64,000 nucleotides of DNA from Cliona cf. orientalis. Its lineage: Eukaryota; Porifera; Demospongiae; Clionaida; Clionaidae. The first letter of the stretch is position 1. Every line of letters starts with the position of its first letter. This document shows, piece after piece, positions 3,001 to 25,935 of the stretch. The DNA is taken from contig OZ005696.1 of assembly GCA_963930775.1 (NCBI GenBank), forward strand, positions 992,001 to 1,056,000, written 5' to 3'. The position numbers and the translations under genes are program-made. The notes beneath the pieces were generated by a model, which worked only from the letters and a program-made list of their open reading frames with translations, was not told the origin of the DNA and ran no database searches.

Positions 3001-6000
3001 AGTCTTGGAGCTCAATCTGTGTGGTGCCTGCTGGTGCAGTGGTGGCTAGTCTCGTCCAGGTGACATTAAGTGGTCTACCATGCATGTCTATCACTCCTTC
3101 CCTCAGGGCAAGCGTCTTGGCACCATACACCGGGATCTCGGTAGACAAAACGTGGCCATAGAGTACCAGCTCTGTCTTGGCTAGGAAAGGTTCTTCTTCT
3201 GTGCCGATTTGTAGCCGACCTCCGCTCGTGATTAGACCACCTTGAGTGTGAAGACTGACTTCATTGTCACCTTTCTCGGGATCAAAGATCAGTTCTCCAC
3301 CTTGGATCAGAATGTACGCAAGAATGGGGGTGTTTACGTCAAGAAGGAGGGTCTGTCCTCTCGGAATAACAACAAATTCATCCTCCTGTGGAAGAGGCCC
3401 TCCGCCCCAGGTGAATGGAGAGCTCCACAGATCCACGAACCAAAATGTGGTGTTCTCGGGTGATCGTGAAATGGCGTAGTTTCCATTGATTGAGACTTGC
3501 ACAGGAGCTCTGATGGTTCGCCCGGTACGGTTTGTAACACAAACGATGGTTGTTTCAGTTTGTTCGACAACATCGCACTCAGTTCCTGCAATTTCTACAC
3601 GTGCACTACCAGTGAAATTGGTGCCTCGTATCATGATAGGAGAGCCACCTTCCGTTCCTCCTCTTGTCCTGTTGATGCTGTCCAGGAACGGGGTGAGGTT
3701 GATGTCATACGTGTAGCCATTCCTGATGGTATCATTTCTGCCTCTGCTGCTAATCACAATGTCACATGTCAAGCTTCCAAGAGTGTAGTCTGCGGGAGGA
3801 ACAATGCAAGATATCGCTGTTTCAGTTTGGACCACTTCACGAGAAATGTTGCACACTTCTCCACAGATGGTAACTGTTGTATTTGCCGGATCTGCTCCAT
3901 CTATGGGGATTGTTATTGTGTTCATTCCTGCAAAACTACCAGTGCTGTTTGACGGTGGGCCAGATGTGGCGAGGATGTAGTCAAAGAGAGCGCCACTGTC
4001 TGTGATCCCGGTACCCAATCCCTCTATGGTGATTTCTGGAAGGACTGTACCAGCAAAGTGGTCTCCAAGCATACACACAACACTGGTATCACTGCTCATG
4101 TCCGCCATGACTAAGCATGGAGAGAAATCAAAGTTGATCGACACAGAGCTGGGATCAGAACCAAATCCACTACCCTCGATTGTGATCATATCTCCACCCC
4201 GTCCCATCGTGGGACTGATGGTATTGGCTCTTGGTGTGCTGTTCATGGCATATGTGTAAATGAGGCTGTCTTGTGGAAAGCTGGCAAGGCCCGTGATCTG
4301 GACATTAATGTAGTGGTCTCCTTCACTATTATCATTCGTTATGCACACGATTGTGCTGTAATTTGCAAACTCAACCTCACAAGGAGCACCACCAATGTCC
4401 ACGGAGATTGCTGTGATGTCAGACGAAAATCCTGTGCCGGTGATGGTCAGCGTCGTACCACCTTGTACACTTCCCCTCATCGGAGACACATCGGTGAGAT
4501 TGGCAACACTAGTGACCACCGAGGCACTTTCATCAATGGCTGCATAACCAAAGCATCGAGTGTCAGAGACATTACAAACCTTCACGGTCAGTTTGTAGTT
4601 GTTAGCAGGGAGTGCGGGCAGACTGCAGACAATCTCTGATGATGTCGCTGATATAGGCATACAGTAATAACCTTCTCCAATTGTTATTTCGTTGTCGTCT
4701 GGTAGGTCGGCAAATCCGGAGCCTTCGATCATGATCTCCATCTCTCCGCTATATGATGAAGGTGTCACAGCTGTAACCATGGGAGTGTGCTCGAGAGAGT
4801 AGGAATAGGAGCAACCACTGATGCACATTGCAGACCTCTCGGGCGAACCACACCATACGCTCAAGTTGAGCTCTCTCGGGGAATCTACTGCCTCCGTCCT
4901 ACACTCAATCTCGGTGTAGTTATACCTGGTTATGTTGCAAGACTGGTCGCCAATTCTGACTTGGATGGGAATTTCATCGGGGCACTTGAAGCCTTCTCCA
5001 GTGATGAGGATATCTGTGCCTCCTTCCACTGAGCCAGCCATTGGGTAAATGTCATAGATAGTGGGCCTAATTTCAATGTTGGTTTCTGAGGTATCACTAA
5101 TGTAGGCATTGCCTGTGCCGGGGTCAAGTACTTGTAGGAAGAGGCCAAGTTGAGTGAACGATGCTGGCAGCTCTATGTCTGGTGAGATTATGCAAGTAAT
5201 TTCTGCAGCGGTACTGTTCACAACATAGCAGTCAAAATCACCAAACATGACTTCATTGTTTTCTTCTGTCTCACTAAACAGTAATCCTGAGATAGTGAAT
5301 GGTGTAGTCAGTCCATACCCAACTTGTGGCGTTACGTAAAACACAGTAGGTGTAACACAGGAACTGTAGATATACGGCAGCCCATCCGATTCACTCGACA
5401 GTGCAATATTATCATACTGTATATCATCCATGCATGGCTCATTATTTGGTTCAAGCTGCATAGACTGTCGTCTTCGCCGGACCACTCCTGCCGCCTCATC
5501 TTCAGTGATGAATTCAGCCTCGAAGCCTCCAACAATGACCTGGATTGGAGCTGCAGAAGATAGCGGCTCACTGACTCGGATAATCCCTCGAACTTGTGCC
5601 AGAGTAAGTTGTGGCTGGATGGTATTTCCAATGTAGTAGAAGGTTCCAACTTCAGTAAAGTTCACACTGTGGGAAGTGGAAGACACGGAGCTAGCGAAGC
5701 CACCTGGGAAGGGTTGAGTTGATTCATTGTCCATGGTTTCAAAAATTTCAAAGCTGAATACTGGATATCCGGGAATCTGAAGATTCCAATTCCATTCCAC
5801 TATGTCTCCCACTTGGATGACAATCTCAGGCTGGCTCCAAGTTAGATTAACAGTGTTATCAACTGCAAAAAAAGCAACAGAATTTGTAAATATCACTTCC
5901 CAAAGATAATTACTATTATAAGCTTACGAGTACATGTATATTTAACATGCTAGATGGCTTACTGTTTAGTTGAGAGCGACGTAATCCAATGTAGTGTGTC

Positions 6001-7481
6001 CTGGTCGAAGTTGGAGTGTAGAACGTCACTTCATTTTCATTCATTGATTCAATTTCTGCTTCCACTCCTCCAAAGGTGACTTTCGTGTAGTTCGCTACGA
6101 ATATCCCTCCAGTCAGTGTTATCGATGTCCCGCCAAAAGTCGATCCTCTCAGTGGAGTAGTTGGATCGTACACCACTACCAGCTTGTAGGTGAATATGGG
6201 GAACGGTGGGAGGTCAGAGGATTCATCATCACTTTCTGACATACCGAAGCCCTCTCCACTTCCTGATGCATAATATGCGGATTCTTGCTCTAACAGTTCC
6301 TTGAGAGCAGCCTTCCATATGGCTACCCCATTTGGTGTTGAGACGTAGACAGGTTCATGGCTTGGTCCGTTTGGTGGTAGAAAGCACTCTATGAGGGTGC
6401 TGTTAGCGGAAAGTACGTAGCAAGGATTCTCACCAACGTACACTGTGACATCTTCTGTGGTGTACGCACCAAAGTCATAGCCAGTGATCGTGAGAAGTGT
6501 GTTTCCGACTACAGCTCCCTCTGAGGGATCAATCGTATCAATGAAGACCGTCTCGTTGATATCGATTTCAAATGCATCCTCGATGTGAACGTACTCTGTG
6601 AGAACAATCACGGTAAGATTGACAGACTGGGGCAGGTTAAGAGCTGGCACACACTGAATCGCACTGACGTTGGATTCAGTGATGATGCAAGGGAGTCCAC
6701 CAAGAAGCACATAGGATGGAAGGTGGAGGTATATGTTGAAGAGGTGAGAATAGAATGCCTCCACGTTGAAGCGTCCATCATTAACCAGATCGAAATCGTC
6801 ATTTTCTGACATGTTACCGTGTCCCATAAAGTCATCTATGTCATCGATAGCTCTATACACGTGGTATGGGGTGAACATATCGAGATATTTGTGACTCGCT
6901 ACCAGTTTTTGCTCAATCGCTGCAGGGCAAAGGTTGAGGTACTGGATTCTTCTGACATAGGGCAAGCCAAGGCCGTACTTAAACCAGGGCAGGGTGGAGA
7001 TTTCTGGGACCCCAAACTCATCTTTATCGTGATTCTCAAACTGCATAAACCCATTCCCAGTAATGGTGACAACTTGTCCTCCACCTATTCCTCCAGAGCC
7101 GGGCGAGATGCCATCAACGCTAAGAAGGTATCGGAAGCAGATCGACTCATTTATGGCTGCCCTCCCTTGACCTTCGATTTGGACTTGGACATTATACCAC
7201 CCAGCCGTGTGATCAGAAGCTACACACTCGATGTAAGTATCATTTGAGCTGGTCACGTAACAAGGTGCATTGCCAATGACGACCTCTATATCAGACGCTA
7301 CGCTTGTGAATCCCTCTCCATATAAGGTAACCGTCGTGCCTCCTTGGCCCTCGTATGGGTAGATCAGGTCGACTCTTGGTGGATCAACAAACGTAAAATT
7401 GCAAACGTTTCCTCGGCAGGAGGAAGGGATATCATTGATGATCACTTCAACCTGCATAAAATTTAAATTTTTGATTCTCTC

Positions 7482-18262: not shown

Positions 18263-21200
18263 TTATGTTTTACTATCCTCCTCGCTTTCAGTTTCCTCCA
18301 TAACAGTCTCTAGCCCATTTCTGCAAAAAAATGAAGCATATCATTAAATATTGTACTAATTAATACCAAAATTTGATACTTTTACACCTATACCTGTTGA
18401 ATGGGGCATTTTCATTTTTGACTCTCCCATTACTCTTGTTTGCATCATGATTGTGTTCATGCTCCAGCTCATCATCATCTTGATCACCACCAGAAAGCTG
18501 TGCCATGGCATCATCAGACTTCTCACAACACGTCTGATGAGCAAACCAGTCCTTGAGCTGACACTCTTCCGAACAATACCCTTGTTTCTCACACCTGGAG
18601 CACTCAAATTCAGCTTCTTTACCACAGATGCAGACATCGATGCTCGGAGTTGAGCTACTTGTCAGCGATGATCTAGACTTGGATTTCTTATGCTTCTTGT
18701 GGTGCTTTTTGTGCTTTTTCTTCTTCTTCTTCTTTGATTTCGACGATTTCGACTGCTTTCTCTGTTTCTTTTCTTCGACCTTTTCTTGACAGATCATTGC
18801 ATGTTTGAACCAGTCGTCCTGCTGGCAGTCCAAACTGCAGTAGCCCCTGAGACCACACTCACTGCACTCCAAGTCAGCAAACTTTCCACATACACACAGC
18901 TCCATTGTAACTGTAGCTATAATTATTATGATGAAATGGAATCAATATATAACTTTAATGCCGTGCACTATGTCAAGGATATTAATTTTAATGTTTGGCA
19001 ACTGCATGTGCTAACATAAAGGTACTATAAATATGATAACTATATTATTATATACCTGGATCAATGTTCTCTATGTACATGGTTCTAGGTTGTACCAGGC
19101 TGTGCTCGATCTGATTCAAAAGTGTTTCATCTTCCGTATCAATCTCAATGAAGTCTCCAGGAACATCTGATTTGAGCAGCTGAAAGTAACGATCATTGTT
19201 CTCCAGTGTTTCCAACTCGATGAAGCCATTCCTGAGATCCTTGAGTGTTTGGTCCGGAGTAAGGTACACGCCCCTCTTGTACAAGATCTCTGTCATGTGA
19301 TCATCGGCAGACTCACTTCTAGTGGGCTCTCCGCTGTACTTTGACTTTGGACTCTCTTGTGTGATTTTACTAACCTCTAGACTGCTGTCTCCCTGCACAC
19401 GTATAAACCACATAAAAGATTTATAAGCAAAGAGTATTTATGGTTCTCCCTTGCTTCCCTCACTTCTCAGAGCAACAATAAACAAGAGGGCTGTATTCAG
19501 TTGTCAACTTACGTCAATTTCTTTCTTGACTAGGTCCTCGATCTCTTCATTACACTCTCCCGGCTGGTCAGAGTCACCAACTCCAGCAGCTCTCTTCTTA
19601 TTCTGATCTTCAGCTCCATCAACAGGCGGAGGGGGTGTGTTCTTCTTCTCATCTACTGATAGCGGTGATTTGGATTTTGCTGGTATCAGTCGAATTATCT
19701 GCCATCTTAGCTTTCCGTTGAGCTCAGCTGGTTCCTTGAATTCTGTCTCTTCTTCATCTCCATTAGTTTTCTTATCAGAGTGGTTTTTGAAAATATCAAC
19801 GAGCTCCTTTCCTGCAAAGAAAATTTTAATTTTGTGTATCCATGCATATAATAATATTATCATTACGTATAATTGTCATACAGAAAAGGTGTATGCCTTT
19901 GAGATGCTTAGAAGTAATTACTTGTGTTACAGTGATGATTGTAGTAATGTGATATCTATTATGGACTATCAAAACAAAGTGACTCGATCTGTCAAATTAC
20001 CTTTTGGCACGAGCACTTCGAGTGATTTTGCTCTAGTGATGTTCAGATCTGAGCCACTGCTGCTGCCACTAACATTGGTAGCTACCTCATCACTGATTGC
20101 TGCTTTGTTTTGAGACACAAGATCTCCAGTCTCATCATCAGTGATAGGGAGGACCTGATGTGTGCATGCATACAAGCGTATCATGTGACTATCACATGAC
20201 AGGATATTGCTCAATACACTGATACCTTCTTTCGTTTCTTTTTCCTCACGAGAACAATGATGATGATGATCAGGCATACCACTAGCACAGCCAGTAGGAC
20301 GGCCACCACTGCGCCCACCACTGCCCACCATATTTGGAAGGTGGTTGGTTCCGGTGATGGAGTTACTGAGAATTTGAAATATGCATACCAGAAAAATGGA
20401 TAGTTGCAATTGCTTCATTGCTAGCTCAACTTACAATCTGAATTGTGGTGCTATTGTAAGAGTATAATCATGTTTTGCAACAGATTTAGCCTCATCCCTT
20501 GCCTCCCACCAAACCCATGCATTTTTTAGCATTTTGATGTCATACTCCAAATTTTCATTATGTAATATAGCTATCCAAACTCAGGAATAAAACATTATAT
20601 ATTATTATACCTTCGAGTTCACATAATTCTCCAGTCCAGCTATCAAGACAGTCACATGACCCGTTAACGTGGTGGCACGATCTTGTTCCGGTCATGAAGC
20701 ACGGACACTGCGAGGCACAGCTCAGCCCATAGGTGCCATTAGGGCACAGCTGGTGACACGTTGCCCCCATGAAACCAGCCGAGCAGTTACAGAATCCCGT
20801 CATCCTATTACACTCCTCGTCTTTGTTGCATGTGCAGATTTCCTGGCAATTACTGCCAAAGAGACCACTGGGACAGGCTGCATTATGAAGTGATAGGAGA
20901 AATAATGATTGTGGAATCACAACCCAAAATTTATTTACTGAATTGGAGAAATAAGATAAAATATGACATTATTAATAATATTATTATACTCACTAAACTC
21001 TAGTGGTCAAGCCATGAGTATATATAATATTATGGAACCTTGCATTGAGGGCATCCATTCCCGCTTTTCTTAAACTTACATATGTTGCAATACGTTCCCA
21101 TCCAGCCTGGAGTACGAGTACACATGCACTCTCCAGTAATGTAATCGCACTCCGCTTCATTCTCGCACAGACATACTCCTGAGCAGCCTTTCCCCCACGC

Positions 21201-24200
21201 GCCAGCTGGACACCCTAGTGTAGGATGAAAATTAACATTAATTTTACCTGATACTGGTGTAATTTACAGCATGGTGTAAATTAACAGGAACTTACTCATC
21301 TCACAGCTGTCTCCCATCCACCCTGGATTGCAGTCACATGATCCGTCAATTGGTGAGCAGGTACCTCTGTTGCTGCAGTCACATGATCCCCGGCACTCCT
21401 CTCCCCACAATCCTTGTGGGCAAACTATGACGTCAAAAAAGTAATGATGATAAAAATTTAGCATACTATTTGTGTGTACTTATACCATTTGAGCAATCAT
21501 CTCCATAGTGACCATCTGGGCAGACCTCCAAAACAGTGAAAATTGAGCCTAATGCAACTCCAAACTGGCAGAGTACATCAGTCTCAGTTCCATTCCTCAG
21601 TTTCACTTCATCAGTGAATTGGGATTTCCTGATCCACATTCTTGAAGTCCCATTCCAGTATGCACACTGAAGATTGCTAGCATTAGAATAACTAACCAAG
21701 ATGGGAAATACAAGATCAATTTGTTCTGAATCTGGTGCCACATTTCTGGCTACTCGTGTTGGAGGTAAGCTACTTCCTGAAGCTTCCAAGATTGAACCAT
21801 TTCGAGGGTTGAGGAGGTACAGCTGGAATAGCAGAGATTTCAGTCGCGCTTCATACTCACTTCCCTGCCATAGGAGATTATGTTTGTGCTGTGCTGATGT
21901 CAAGCAAACCCCTGAACAATACAACAACTCAGATTCTGCATCACCAATTTCCATTGCAGCTGCACAGGGCCACCAAAGGTACCGCTCAAACAGAATCGAA
22001 CTAAAATTGGCTGTCACCTTTGGAACTTTTTCACTCAAGCATGTTTTTGCTTTTCTGCTGTTAGCTTGTCTTGCACTGCACTGCTCAGTAGACTGATAAT
22101 TTGATGGAAGATTTGCTTGAGAGGCTTTGAGATATGATGAACTGGCTCCATTGACAAAAGAATGTCGCTCGCTTGTGCATAGACCAAAGCCAAGTTTTGG
22201 AATGATGTCGAGAAATTCTTGAGTCATAGAGTTTGCTTGAATACGAGAAATACTGTCAGATATCTGGCCATTACCAGTGGCTATTAAATTCTGAAGGATC
22301 TTGAGAACAATCTGACTCTCTGTAGTGGAAAATCCGGGTAAGGAAAAGATCTTCTGTTCATCAAAGTTGTTGTAGGAATCTACAAGAATCCGAATAAAAT
22401 CAATGATCCTCGTGATTAATTCATTATTCAAGGAACTTAGAGAGCTTGTTGTGCTCTGAAGCAAACTAGCAATCACACTGAGGTATGGCTTTGTATTTGG
22501 AATGTATGATTCGTAGATGTCTAGAACAATTTCTGTTGCTTTCATTTTAAACTGGGCTCTCTGACCCTGTGACAAATTGAAGTATGGGGAATTGAATGAG
22601 CTGACTTCAGCAAATGATACTAGAGTTGTTAGCTGAGCTAACGCATCTCTCCAATTGTTCCGAGATAGCTGCTGGAATCCATCAAGCATAGCTAGTACAT
22701 CAATCTGCTCTCTTCTTGGAGCATCCACCATTGGCTGGAGCAGCTCTGTTGAATCATCATCCGTCACCACTGGTGGCTCTGTGAAAATTTGGTCAAGATT
22801 TTGGGATGCCTCAGATTTAGCTCCATTCTTATCAAATACACGAACCAGCAGTTCAACTTGTGCAGGTACTCCATTCATGGCTTGAGGCAGAAAAGGTAGC
22901 GTGGTTTGTAGATCATTCCGCTCAGAGACACCAGTGCTGAAGAAATCGCATACACTCGACACATTTTCAGGCGTGCTCATAGAGAGTGAACTGTTATCAT
23001 TGTAAAATAGATTACAGCAAGAAGGAAGTGGCTGCCTTGAATCTGATGACTCTGTTGTGTTGAAGAAAATGTATCTAAATCCAAACTGGTACAGTAAAGG
23101 TGTGTCACCAATATTATCAGTCCAGCCAGGAGCGGAGAGAGAGAAGATGGTTGCAAGAGGGGAGCCAGTTTGTGGGCTGATGAGAAGCCTTCCAGACGAA
23201 GGCACAGATTGAGTTTGGATGTCCACCTCTGCAAATCCCGAGTTACCCAATTCATCGTAGGTCGTGAACTTAAATCTGTAGGAATTCTGAGGGAGGAGGG
23301 TGTTACTAGTGACAACTAAGCTAATCCGATTTATCAAGGAGTTTGAATAGCTACTATTTGTGAAGAGGAGAGGTGATATTTCGGAGAAATTTGACGTCCT
23401 TGAATCAATTCCCGTGATGTTGTACCTCAGAGGAGACCTCGTATTATCTTCATTAAGGTCCAGCTGAGCATACCCTGCAGAATTTTATAAATGAATATCG
23501 TTCTGTCGAAAGCATACATTAGCATTCATTACTGTTTAAAGAAAGTCATCATAATGACCTTTCATATATTCATGGTATAACGTTATCATTGTAGCTATTC
23601 ATAGCCAAGCTGTGATGTCCATTCCCATGGTTACAGATGTAAACATATGCCGGGCAATAATGTAATTTTACTAGCGTGCAGTACACATGTACTTACCAAT
23701 CACATACTCAGACGTCCATTGACCAATTCCGGGAAAATTTGATTGCACGCCAATGTTCAGAATTAATTCATTATGCACCAAAACTGATTCCAGATCCATA
23801 CCTACATTCTCTGCTTGAATGACATCTACTCTTGGAACCGGGAATGGGAATACGACCACCACTTGGTATGTGCTGGACTCCAGCATCACAGTACTATTCT
23901 GAGAATCTGACGTCAAACGCAAATTTAATGAGAAATTGTACTCTCCTGGAGGTAGTTCACCACGAGGGATGATTTGAACCAAGCTATTGGCTGAAAACGA
24001 AAAAGCTTGCCCATTTTGACCAATGCATTCATCATTCGAGGCTAGTGAGGCACATCTCCATGCAACATCCAGTGCTAGTGAACTAGTGTTAACATACTGA
24101 GATTGTCGCCCATCTAGCAGAATATCTTCATTTGTTCCAATAGATCTCCTTACTCCACCATTGATTCTTGCAATGAGGTTGAACAATTCAACATCAGTTA

Positions 24201-25935
24201 TTAACACTGCCGAAGCTTCAACGATTACTGAATTGAAGTCCACGCTCAGGGTAGCAGTGTATTCCAATCCTAACTCTAACGAATAAGGAGGTAATACCAG
24301 CACTGAGGAGTGAGAAGTATCACCCGGTAAATTTATTGCTCTGCCAAATTGATCAGCAATTCTCCAAGTGTAGGCCACTGGTTCATATAGTCCTATCATG
24401 CAGGCATCACTAGGAAGGATCACACGACCGTCTAGTATTGTCTCGTCTGATATTTCAATCCTTCTATTTTCTCCACCAACTATTAACACACTTGGCTGTA
24501 CAATCTCAGCTCTAGTGATATTGGTAAGTGTTGCCATTGAAGTAAAACCGAGAAAATTTCTAACATGAAGTTGGATGTCGAAGTTACTTGGTAACATGAG
24601 TGGAGCACCACTCCCTGATCCCCCCGAACCAACATGAAGAAGGTCTGGATTGAATATGTCCGACGAGAGCTCTAAGACTGACTGAGATGTGAATCCAGTT
24701 GGTATGTGATCCGCAAGAATCCTGTCTTGAATAAGGGTACCGTTTTCGTCGTATCGTGTACCAATGATCCACATGTATTGAAGCCCTCTTGAGCCTCCGT
24801 ACTGTGACTTCTCTCCACTAACAGTGAAATTGCCACAATATGGAATAACACTCGGAGCTTCTATGATAGCCACGGGCAGAAACTGCGGTGAGTCTGCCTC
24901 GGGCAAGGAGACAACGGCATTTCCACTAGCAAGTTGGGAGTACTGCACATATCTTGTACGTATGGTGTCGTTTCTGATGGTTAACTGTGATCCTAACTCG
25001 ACTGACGTATCTGAAGCTAGCTCTATGATCACCTCTCGTTGCTGGGTATTGTACCAGAAACAGATTGAGCTCAGACCGATCACATTCTGCAGCGTTTCTT
25101 GTGCAAAAATTTCATCGCAAGAGATTTCAGTAGTAGATGAAATTGGACTTGTATCATTAGTCTGCTGTTCTCCACCAATTTCTACTTCCCTGTCAAACGA
25201 TAGAAGCAATTGTGCGTAGGAGAGGGTAAATCGACAGGACTGGATTCTGGGAGGGGAAGAGAAATAGGTAAAGGTTGTTGAATTTTCCATGCGTGGTGCA
25301 ATATTGGCTATGGCCTGACCATTCATTGATGCAGCAATGACTACTCGTGCTGTCTCTGGGAATGGGACTAGCTGACACTGAAGGAAACTGGAATTGATAT
25401 ACTGGGCTGGAACTTTGTAGGAACCAGCCACGCTGCAGGTAAGCTCATTAGTGTCTAGAAAATTCTCTCCTGTGATTGATAAGGTGATATTTGTTGAATT
25501 TGCCAATCCTTCGGTTGGTGAAATGCTCCAGACTCGTATCTGCTCGAGATCATATAATAAAAATCCAACGCTGCTTGAGCCACTTCCTGGGGCGCCAGTG
25601 ATTGTGAAACTAACCATTTCTCCACCCTGAAGCATAGAATCAGTCAAATATGCAATCTCTGGTTGATAACAGGTCAAAAATGTCTGATTGTGCAAGATGT
25701 TTCGTTCACTGAGTGAAGCTCCTCTAAGAGATCGCTCAAATCTGCATTTTGATCGATCAGATCCAGTGGTGATAAATCCTGCCCCTGTGACATTGATCTC
25801 TGTACCTCCAGATATTGGTCCACTCTTTGGAGTGTAATCAAGAAGTATTTGACAGTCAGCTACTCCAGACCACAATATTACACACAGCATAAATGCAATG
25901 CATGCCATCTTTGCAGCACCGCCTATTTTTCTCAC
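18263..25935 (-). CDS. Single-pass TIG-REJ-EGF receptor with two cytoplasmic MYND zinc fingers
   Basis: Exons: 25935-23697, 23474-21486, 21424-21296, 21214-21080, 20877-20611, 20365-20226, 20154-20001, 19811-19513, 19392-19056, 18910-18394, 18320-18263 (stop). Phases match throughout: 2,087 residues. Order: signal peptide (1 to about 28); TIG/IPT domains (about 30-230); a REJ region (about 355 to 1050 or beyond), as in polycystin-1 and egg-jelly receptors; a GPS-like segment (about 1345-1400) without the HL-S/T cleavage motif; four EGF modules (about 1400-1585); a membrane span (about 1599-1626) followed by RKKKRKK. The tail holds MYND 1 (about 1902-1937), a Lys-rich tract (about 1950-1972) and MYND 2 (about 1990-2025). 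Each finger keeps seven Cys and one His, but its first pair is C-x-C rather than the usual C-x2-C. MYND fingers usually bind peptides in nuclear or cytosolic proteins. Ligand and role are unknown. Confidence 0.85.

Follow-up and report, generated by a model that had tools for sequence, protein, structure and literature searches.

The question raised by this locus is whether one gene joins the ectodomain of a REJ-type surface receptor to a tail with two MYND zinc fingers, or whether a receptor and a MYND gene have been fused in the gene model. The window analyzed is a stretch of 64,000 nucleotides from the sponge Cliona cf. orientalis (contig OZ005696.1 of assembly GCA_963930775.1, positions 992,001 to 1,056,000), and the gene, here termed class A, lies on its minus strand. 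A sequence-only reading of this DNA had proposed that eleven exons with matching phases, between 18,263 and 25,935, join a signal peptide, TIG, REJ, and EGF ectodomain and one membrane span to a tail with two MYND fingers. When homologous sequences are placed beside the locus, we regard it as almost certain that the architecture is conserved and that the gene model is not a fusion.

All 11 exons were found, running from 25,908 to 18,263 with AG/GT at every border and fitting phases, and the joined frame of 2,080 residues holds no internal stop. The start of the protein is the ATG at 25,908, which opens a signal-peptide-like N terminus, as 25,935 is merely the GTG start of a mechanically called open reading frame. 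The features are as follows (P0002 and P0011 are homologues described below).

23697..25908, minus strand: exon 1, signal peptide, two TIG, and first half of REJ (AG/GT borders, frame, Pfam TIG and REJ)
22795..24378, minus strand: REJ domain, residues 511-964, across intron 1 (Pfam; genome match C8:1014795-1016378)
21486..23474, minus strand: exon 2, second half of REJ and GAIN-like region with degenerate GPS (profile match to the paralogue class)
21296..21424, minus strand: exon 3, EGF-like repeat (borders, Pfam, 63% identity to P0002)
21080..21214, minus strand: exon 4, EGF-like repeat (borders, Pfam, P0002 alignment)
20611..20877, minus strand: exon 5, EGF-like repeats (borders, P0002 alignment)
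20226..20365, minus strand: exon 6, the one membrane span (about 20,333-20,250), followed by a basic stop-transfer (hydropathy)
20001..20154, minus strand: exon 7, juxtamembrane tail with conserved SLEVLVPKGK box (similar stretch in relatives)
19513..19811, minus strand: exon 8, conserved EFKEP..GKLRWQII box, then a variable insert (relatives' alignment, P0011 model)
19056..19392, minus strand: exon 9, core of a suggested ubiquitin-like segment (about 19,287-19,057; alignment of 29 relatives, P0011 structural look-up)
18394..18916, minus strand: exon 10, MYND 1, polybasic linker, MYND 2 (Pfam zf-MYND twice; Tyr/Gln/Trp)
18789..18893, minus strand: MYND finger 1 (over cut-off in the whole-genome six-frame search, 33.4 bits)
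18663..18788, minus strand: polybasic linker between the MYND fingers (51 residues, 22 lysine or arginine)
18525..18626, minus strand: MYND finger 2 (over cut-off in the same search, 31.7 bits)
18263..18320, minus strand: exon 11, weakly supported, encoding the final 19 residues and the stop (evidence from phase and splice borders only)

As phase agreement alone could be chance, homologues crossing the doubtful junctions were sought. The doubtful part, the joins of the membrane exon to the MYND exons, is bridged without a break by P0002 and P0011. P0002 is a "MYND-type domain-containing protein" from Amphimedon queenslandica with a length of 1,759 residues; its domain order is that of class A (TIG, EGF-like, span, tail, two MYND), with REJ not called in it by Pfam. 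It aligns with the class A protein over the full length (1,972 columns, 28% identity, 617 bits), and is a likely orthologue of the window gene. By exon, 30% of aligned residues are identical in both large ectodomain exons; the figure is 49-63% for the EGF exons, 24% for the span exon, and 36%, 41%, 47%, and 50% for exons 7 to 10. Exon 11, of whose 19 residues none align to P0002, is unlike the other exons in lacking homologue support. Among the nine matches of that homologue search, MYND occurs in P0002 alone, the other eight being EGF or other proteins from molluscs, a turtle, and one EukProt entry. P0011 (377 residues) runs from the membrane span through both MYND fingers in a single frame. 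The relatives used here derive mostly from metagenome contigs. A search with the class A tail matched 38 proteins, of which one (P0026) is the window's own frame and 29 were aligned with exon 9.

The sequence-only reading did not reach a paralogue outside the window, termed class B. The genome holds at least two REJ matches, both on the window's contig (C8), and one of them is the window gene; the class B frame lies about 92 kb away. As its REJ and MYND share one open frame and splicing is unneeded, the architecture can be read straight from the DNA. This frame of 2,009 codons includes the MYND match, and Pfam finds REJ (E 6.2e-40), TIG (3.9e-7), and MYND (2.4e-6).

C8:912580-918609 (L011, 1780-7809): class B paralogue, one exon with TIG, REJ, GPS motif, span, one MYND, and a long Ser-rich tail
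C8:896337-909005 (L048, 3537-10000, and L047, 1-6205), same strand as class B: giant open frame upstream of it, signal-peptide-like start, 35 cadherin stretches

The upstream sequence consists of two abutting long frames (2,154 and 2,068 codons as fetched) with 17 and 18 cadherin stretches, the first with the signal-peptide-like start, followed by Cys-rich frames. By analogy with the order in the Amphimedon cadherin XP_003386184.1, it is probably the N-terminal part of the class B gene, and we infer that the cadherin frame is spliced to the REJ exon. A retrocopy origin of class B was dropped, as additional upstream frames, interrupted by gaps, appear to belong to the same gene.

A search with the class B tail found 65 proteins, a set that does not include the Amphimedon cadherin, which exceeds the length limit of that search, and that includes P0049, whose identity to the query over the region is 98% and which may be from the same species. 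Precomputed Pfam calls give REJ with MYND in 49, REJ without MYND in 13, and MYND without REJ in 3; all 65 carry the MYND pattern, and P0093, one of the 13, clears the MYND cut-off on rescan. A hydrophobic span lies 148-169 residues ahead of MYND in all 65 (60 under a position filter). Median pairwise identity among 66 sequences is 63% (48-99) in the tail, taken as ubiquitin-like segment plus MYND, vs 33% (21-94) in the last 400 ectodomain residues. The tail is thus under stronger constraint than the ectodomain, which suggests that the intracellular partner is fixed while the outside ligands change. Near the C terminus of 36 of the 65 (P0048-P0112), an acidic di-leucine-like motif, EPLLESDE, recurs, which we take to be a possible sorting signal. 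In three assemblies, a class A piece and a class B protein sit on metagenome contigs of identical size (488,471, 687,366, and 731,131 bases), and 11 of the 38 class A pieces sit on contigs of at least 90 kb. The two genes are therefore probably linked in other species too, and this suggests that the linkage is old, identical contig size being an indirect sign.

In the ectodomain of the window gene, domain search and hydropathy agree with the composition first proposed. Pfam calls TIG in two stretches (E 1.6e-12) and REJ (E 2.5e-32); EGF_Teneurin is barely above its cut-off (24.7 vs 24.3), the remaining EGF families are below theirs, and there are no cadherin repeats. Besides the signal peptide, hydropathy marks a single strong membrane span near residue 1,597 (3.85), and weaker hydrophobic stretches at 1371 (1.88) and 561 (1.72) fall within the ectodomain. 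The label "polycystin-type" given to the gene holds for the REJ and GAIN-like part but not beyond it, as PLAT/LH2 and PKD_channel are missing from the protein (Pfam scan, E<=1) and it has one strong span, not eleven; PKD_channel matches sit elsewhere in the genome (C3, C4).

The GAIN-like region had been missed. It occupies about residues 1003-1385, in exon 2, and a post-REJ profile of the window gene and P0002 matched class B with a probability of 97.5% (E 6.5e-12), the class B profile including one row, P0048, that is a wrong stretch, as the motif occurs twice in that protein. The predicted class B model in turn matches GAIN structures, with a GAIN register that ends at the cleavage site in five of nine rows of the structural look-up (CELSR1 at rank 4), which left out the ubiquitin-like segment. 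On the profile match to class B, the domain after REJ in the window gene may be called GAIN-like. Its GPS triad, HL↓S/T, is missing, with CQFGVALGSIF at that place; its own GPS segment has no Pfam GPS match, and that of P0002 reaches 17 bits, under the cut-off of 22.5. In class B, the motif is present in 63 of the 65 proteins, and an invariant Cys pair (C529 and C566 in P0061), putatively a disulfide, surrounds it, followed in P0061 by a Pro/Thr-rich stalk of about 55 residues before the span. Pfam GPS does not match the class B GPS segments, nor any part of five class B proteins scanned.

Next to the membrane, the tail has the SLEVLVPKGK box, with a similar stretch in P0011, P0014, P0018, P0020, P0023, and P0025. 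It continues with a second element absent from the original layout, a segment whose core in exon 9 is kept across the 29 aligned relatives and has one match only in the whole genome. A structural look-up of P0011 suggests a ubiquitin-like (beta-grasp) fold, and the exon 8 box is proposed as its first strand. Profile comparison of the class A and class B ubiquitin-like segments gave no match, and a common origin is therefore not claimed. The two MYND fingers are found by Pfam (E 4.3e-8, two stretches, 33.5 bits vs cut-off 22.7) and by the six-frame search, and their C4-C2HC zinc ligands score over the Pfam cut-off. Both retain the peptide-site Tyr, Gln, and Trp, which are invariant across 57 aligned sequences; recruitment of peptide ligands by the tail would fit this conservation. 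The SET domain of SMYD methyltransferases is missing (Pfam scan, E<=1). The inter-MYND linker is basic in relatives too (13 of 36 residues lysine or arginine in P0002, 13 of 32 in P0011), and the Lys-rich tract of the window linker is of low complexity.

Taken together, the account toward which we lean, and which we rank first, is that of a type I receptor family with two genes on one contig, whose tail would be a membrane-bound scaffold. The mechanism is put forward more tentatively, as slightly short of an even chance. The TIG, REJ, and GAIN-like ectodomain would bind or sense something extracellular, and the single span would connect it to the ubiquitin-like segment and one or two MYND fingers, which could grip PxLxP-type peptides of cytosolic partners while the tail stays at the membrane. 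In the window gene, two fingers would permit two-site binding, with the ubiquitin-like segment as a second contact. Class B, with its look of a giant cadherin, would probably self-cut its GAIN at HL↓S and hold the outer fragment non-covalently until pull between cells or a ligand strips it off. The window gene appears to have lost the self-cleavage site, has no cadherins before TIG, and places EGF repeats between GAIN and membrane. We infer the type I topology, ligand sensing, class B self-cleavage, PxLxP partners, and signaling.

Ranked second, and unlikely in our estimate, is a release of the tail as in Notch: by analogy, ectodomain loss and an intramembrane cut would send the tail to the nucleus, where MYND would recruit co-repressors. 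The basic linker in the window gene, P0002, and P0011 and the GPS motif retained in 63 of 65 class B proteins would suit this, as would passages of two papers, that MYND partners include co-repressors (PMC4742278) and that the polycystin-1 tail gives rise to a soluble fragment going to the nucleus or mitochondria (PMC10502374). Against it, the Lys tract is of low complexity, and such a linker is absent from the class B paralogue with its one finger. It also counts against release that a membrane span is normally followed by a basic stop-transfer run. In third place, and improbable, the tail of an adhesion or matrix receptor would serve its trafficking or turnover without signaling, its ubiquitin-like segment and MYND binding sorting or degradation factors; this would accommodate the suggested fold, EPLLESDE in 36 of 65 class B tails, and the cadherins upstream of class B, which point to adhesion, but a MYND peptide site invariant in 57 sequences seems, in our judgment, more than trafficking would need. 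It is scarcely credible that the MYND exons form a gene of their own that was attached to the receptor by mistake, an idea we rejected although an open reading frame from the ATG at 18,904 exists (18,360-18,905), as P0002 and P0011 cross the junction unbroken, class B does so in genomic DNA, REJ and MYND share one protein in 49 of 65 relatives, and AATAAA was not found on the minus strand between 20,365 and 18,263.

A REJ-GAIN family that is conserved, crosses the membrane once, and carries a MYND tail would add a third kind to the known GAIN proteins, would show a polycystin-like ectodomain module operating without a channel, and would give MYND fingers a cell-surface role. Its single span and compact tail make it possible to test GAIN cleavage and recruitment by the tail directly. 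It could be speculated further, as a long shot, that a third GAIN-receptor class stands beside adhesion G protein-coupled receptors (GPCRs) and polycystins, made up of single-pass adhesion receptors: a giant cadherin with its outer part held by a self-cleaved GAIN, and a non-cutting, cadherin-free sister (the window gene). Their ubiquitin-like/MYND tails would be set free or switched so as to recruit PxLxP co-regulators; if true, cell contact would be directly connected to gene control in sponges.

Elsewhere in the genome, the six-frame search gave 29 MYND matches, and the loci examined were the two receptors and three others with long MYND frames (8 of the 29 matches), which have Tudor or DUF4470 partners and no REJ; for the first, the scan took in 971 residues of a frame of 4,173 codons. 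Neither receptor gene is among the 127 sites listed by a genome-wide GPS search, whose dense clusters at C16:1.61-1.80 Mb and C5:0.24-0.41 and 2.81-2.98 Mb suggest expanded adhesion-GPCR-like arrays. Just downstream of the receptor, another gene (window about 17,909-17,000, minus strand) has a signal-peptide-like start and may encode a CAP/CRISP protein, judging by a resembling motif, and about 11 kb downstream lies a 513-residue open frame with four TIG stretches (5,916-7,457, minus strand, E 4.5e-44). An NCBIfam scan gave nothing useful.

Comparison with known systems places these genes more precisely. The sequence-only reading knew of no MYND finger on a REJ-type receptor, yet VSP, IPT, REJ, and MYND are listed for the Amphimedon cadherin XP_003386184.1, treated as dachsous in a 2013 Hippo-gene paper and the only one of that paper's dachsous genes with these domains (PMC3620549). 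The combination is thus already in print, as the class B layout, not remarked on as a receptor tail: section 6 and the Figure 3 legend do not discuss MYND, GAIN, or GPS of this protein. They place VSP, IPT, and REJ at 5114-6215, a stretch also present in a 2,603-residue Branchiostoma protein, and report sequence similar to region 4900-6300 in two Monosiga proteins (PMC3620549). Compared by listed domains alone, XP_003386184.1 resembles class B in its cadherin repeats, VSP, IPT (TIG), REJ, and MYND, and would appear in a new light; the window gene differs in having no cadherins before TIG, EGF repeats, and two MYND. P0002 has the layout of the window gene over its whole length and is shorter. 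Among the matches listed from the open-licence literature, there was no other report of REJ or polycystin-1 with MYND. As far as these searches go, class A (EGF repeats, two MYND, lost GPS) and both genes as single-pass GAIN-type receptors are undescribed.

Polycystin-1 and PKD1-like proteins have REJ then GAIN; here, REJ is followed by a predicted GAIN fold in class B and by a GAIN-like region in the window gene. Polycystin-1 has eleven spans, whereas the window gene has one strong span, neither PLAT/LH2 nor PKD_channel, and a MYND tail. GPS cleavage of polycystin-1 requires its REJ-GAIN region, and one disulfide, C3015-C3043, lies near its GPS, according to passages of PMC4810088. Class B resembles it in the Cys pair around the GPS; the window gene, without HL↓S/T, differs. 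A 2025 paper states that, outside adhesion GPCRs and PKD1-like proteins, no GAIN domains are known (PMC11697300). In its predicted model, class B shares the GAIN fold with adhesion GPCRs, including CELSR, and it would combine cadherins with GAIN as CELSR1 does. Neither class has the seven-span part, which Pfam and hydropathy find missing after the GAIN-like region in the window gene, and between GPS and span there is a Pro/Thr stalk (P0061) or EGF repeats (window gene). Sea urchin suREJ1, a single-pass REJ protein, shares the REJ ectodomain with the window gene; to our knowledge, it has no MYND tail. It acts in the acrosome reaction, as stated in part of PMC9265791. Finally, BS69/ZMYND11, DEAF-1, and RUNX1T1 (ETO) carry MYND with a Tyr/Gln/Trp peptide site, as given in a part of PMC4742278. 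These are transcriptional regulators, whereas the window MYND fingers, with the same Tyr/Gln/Trp, sit on a receptor tail.
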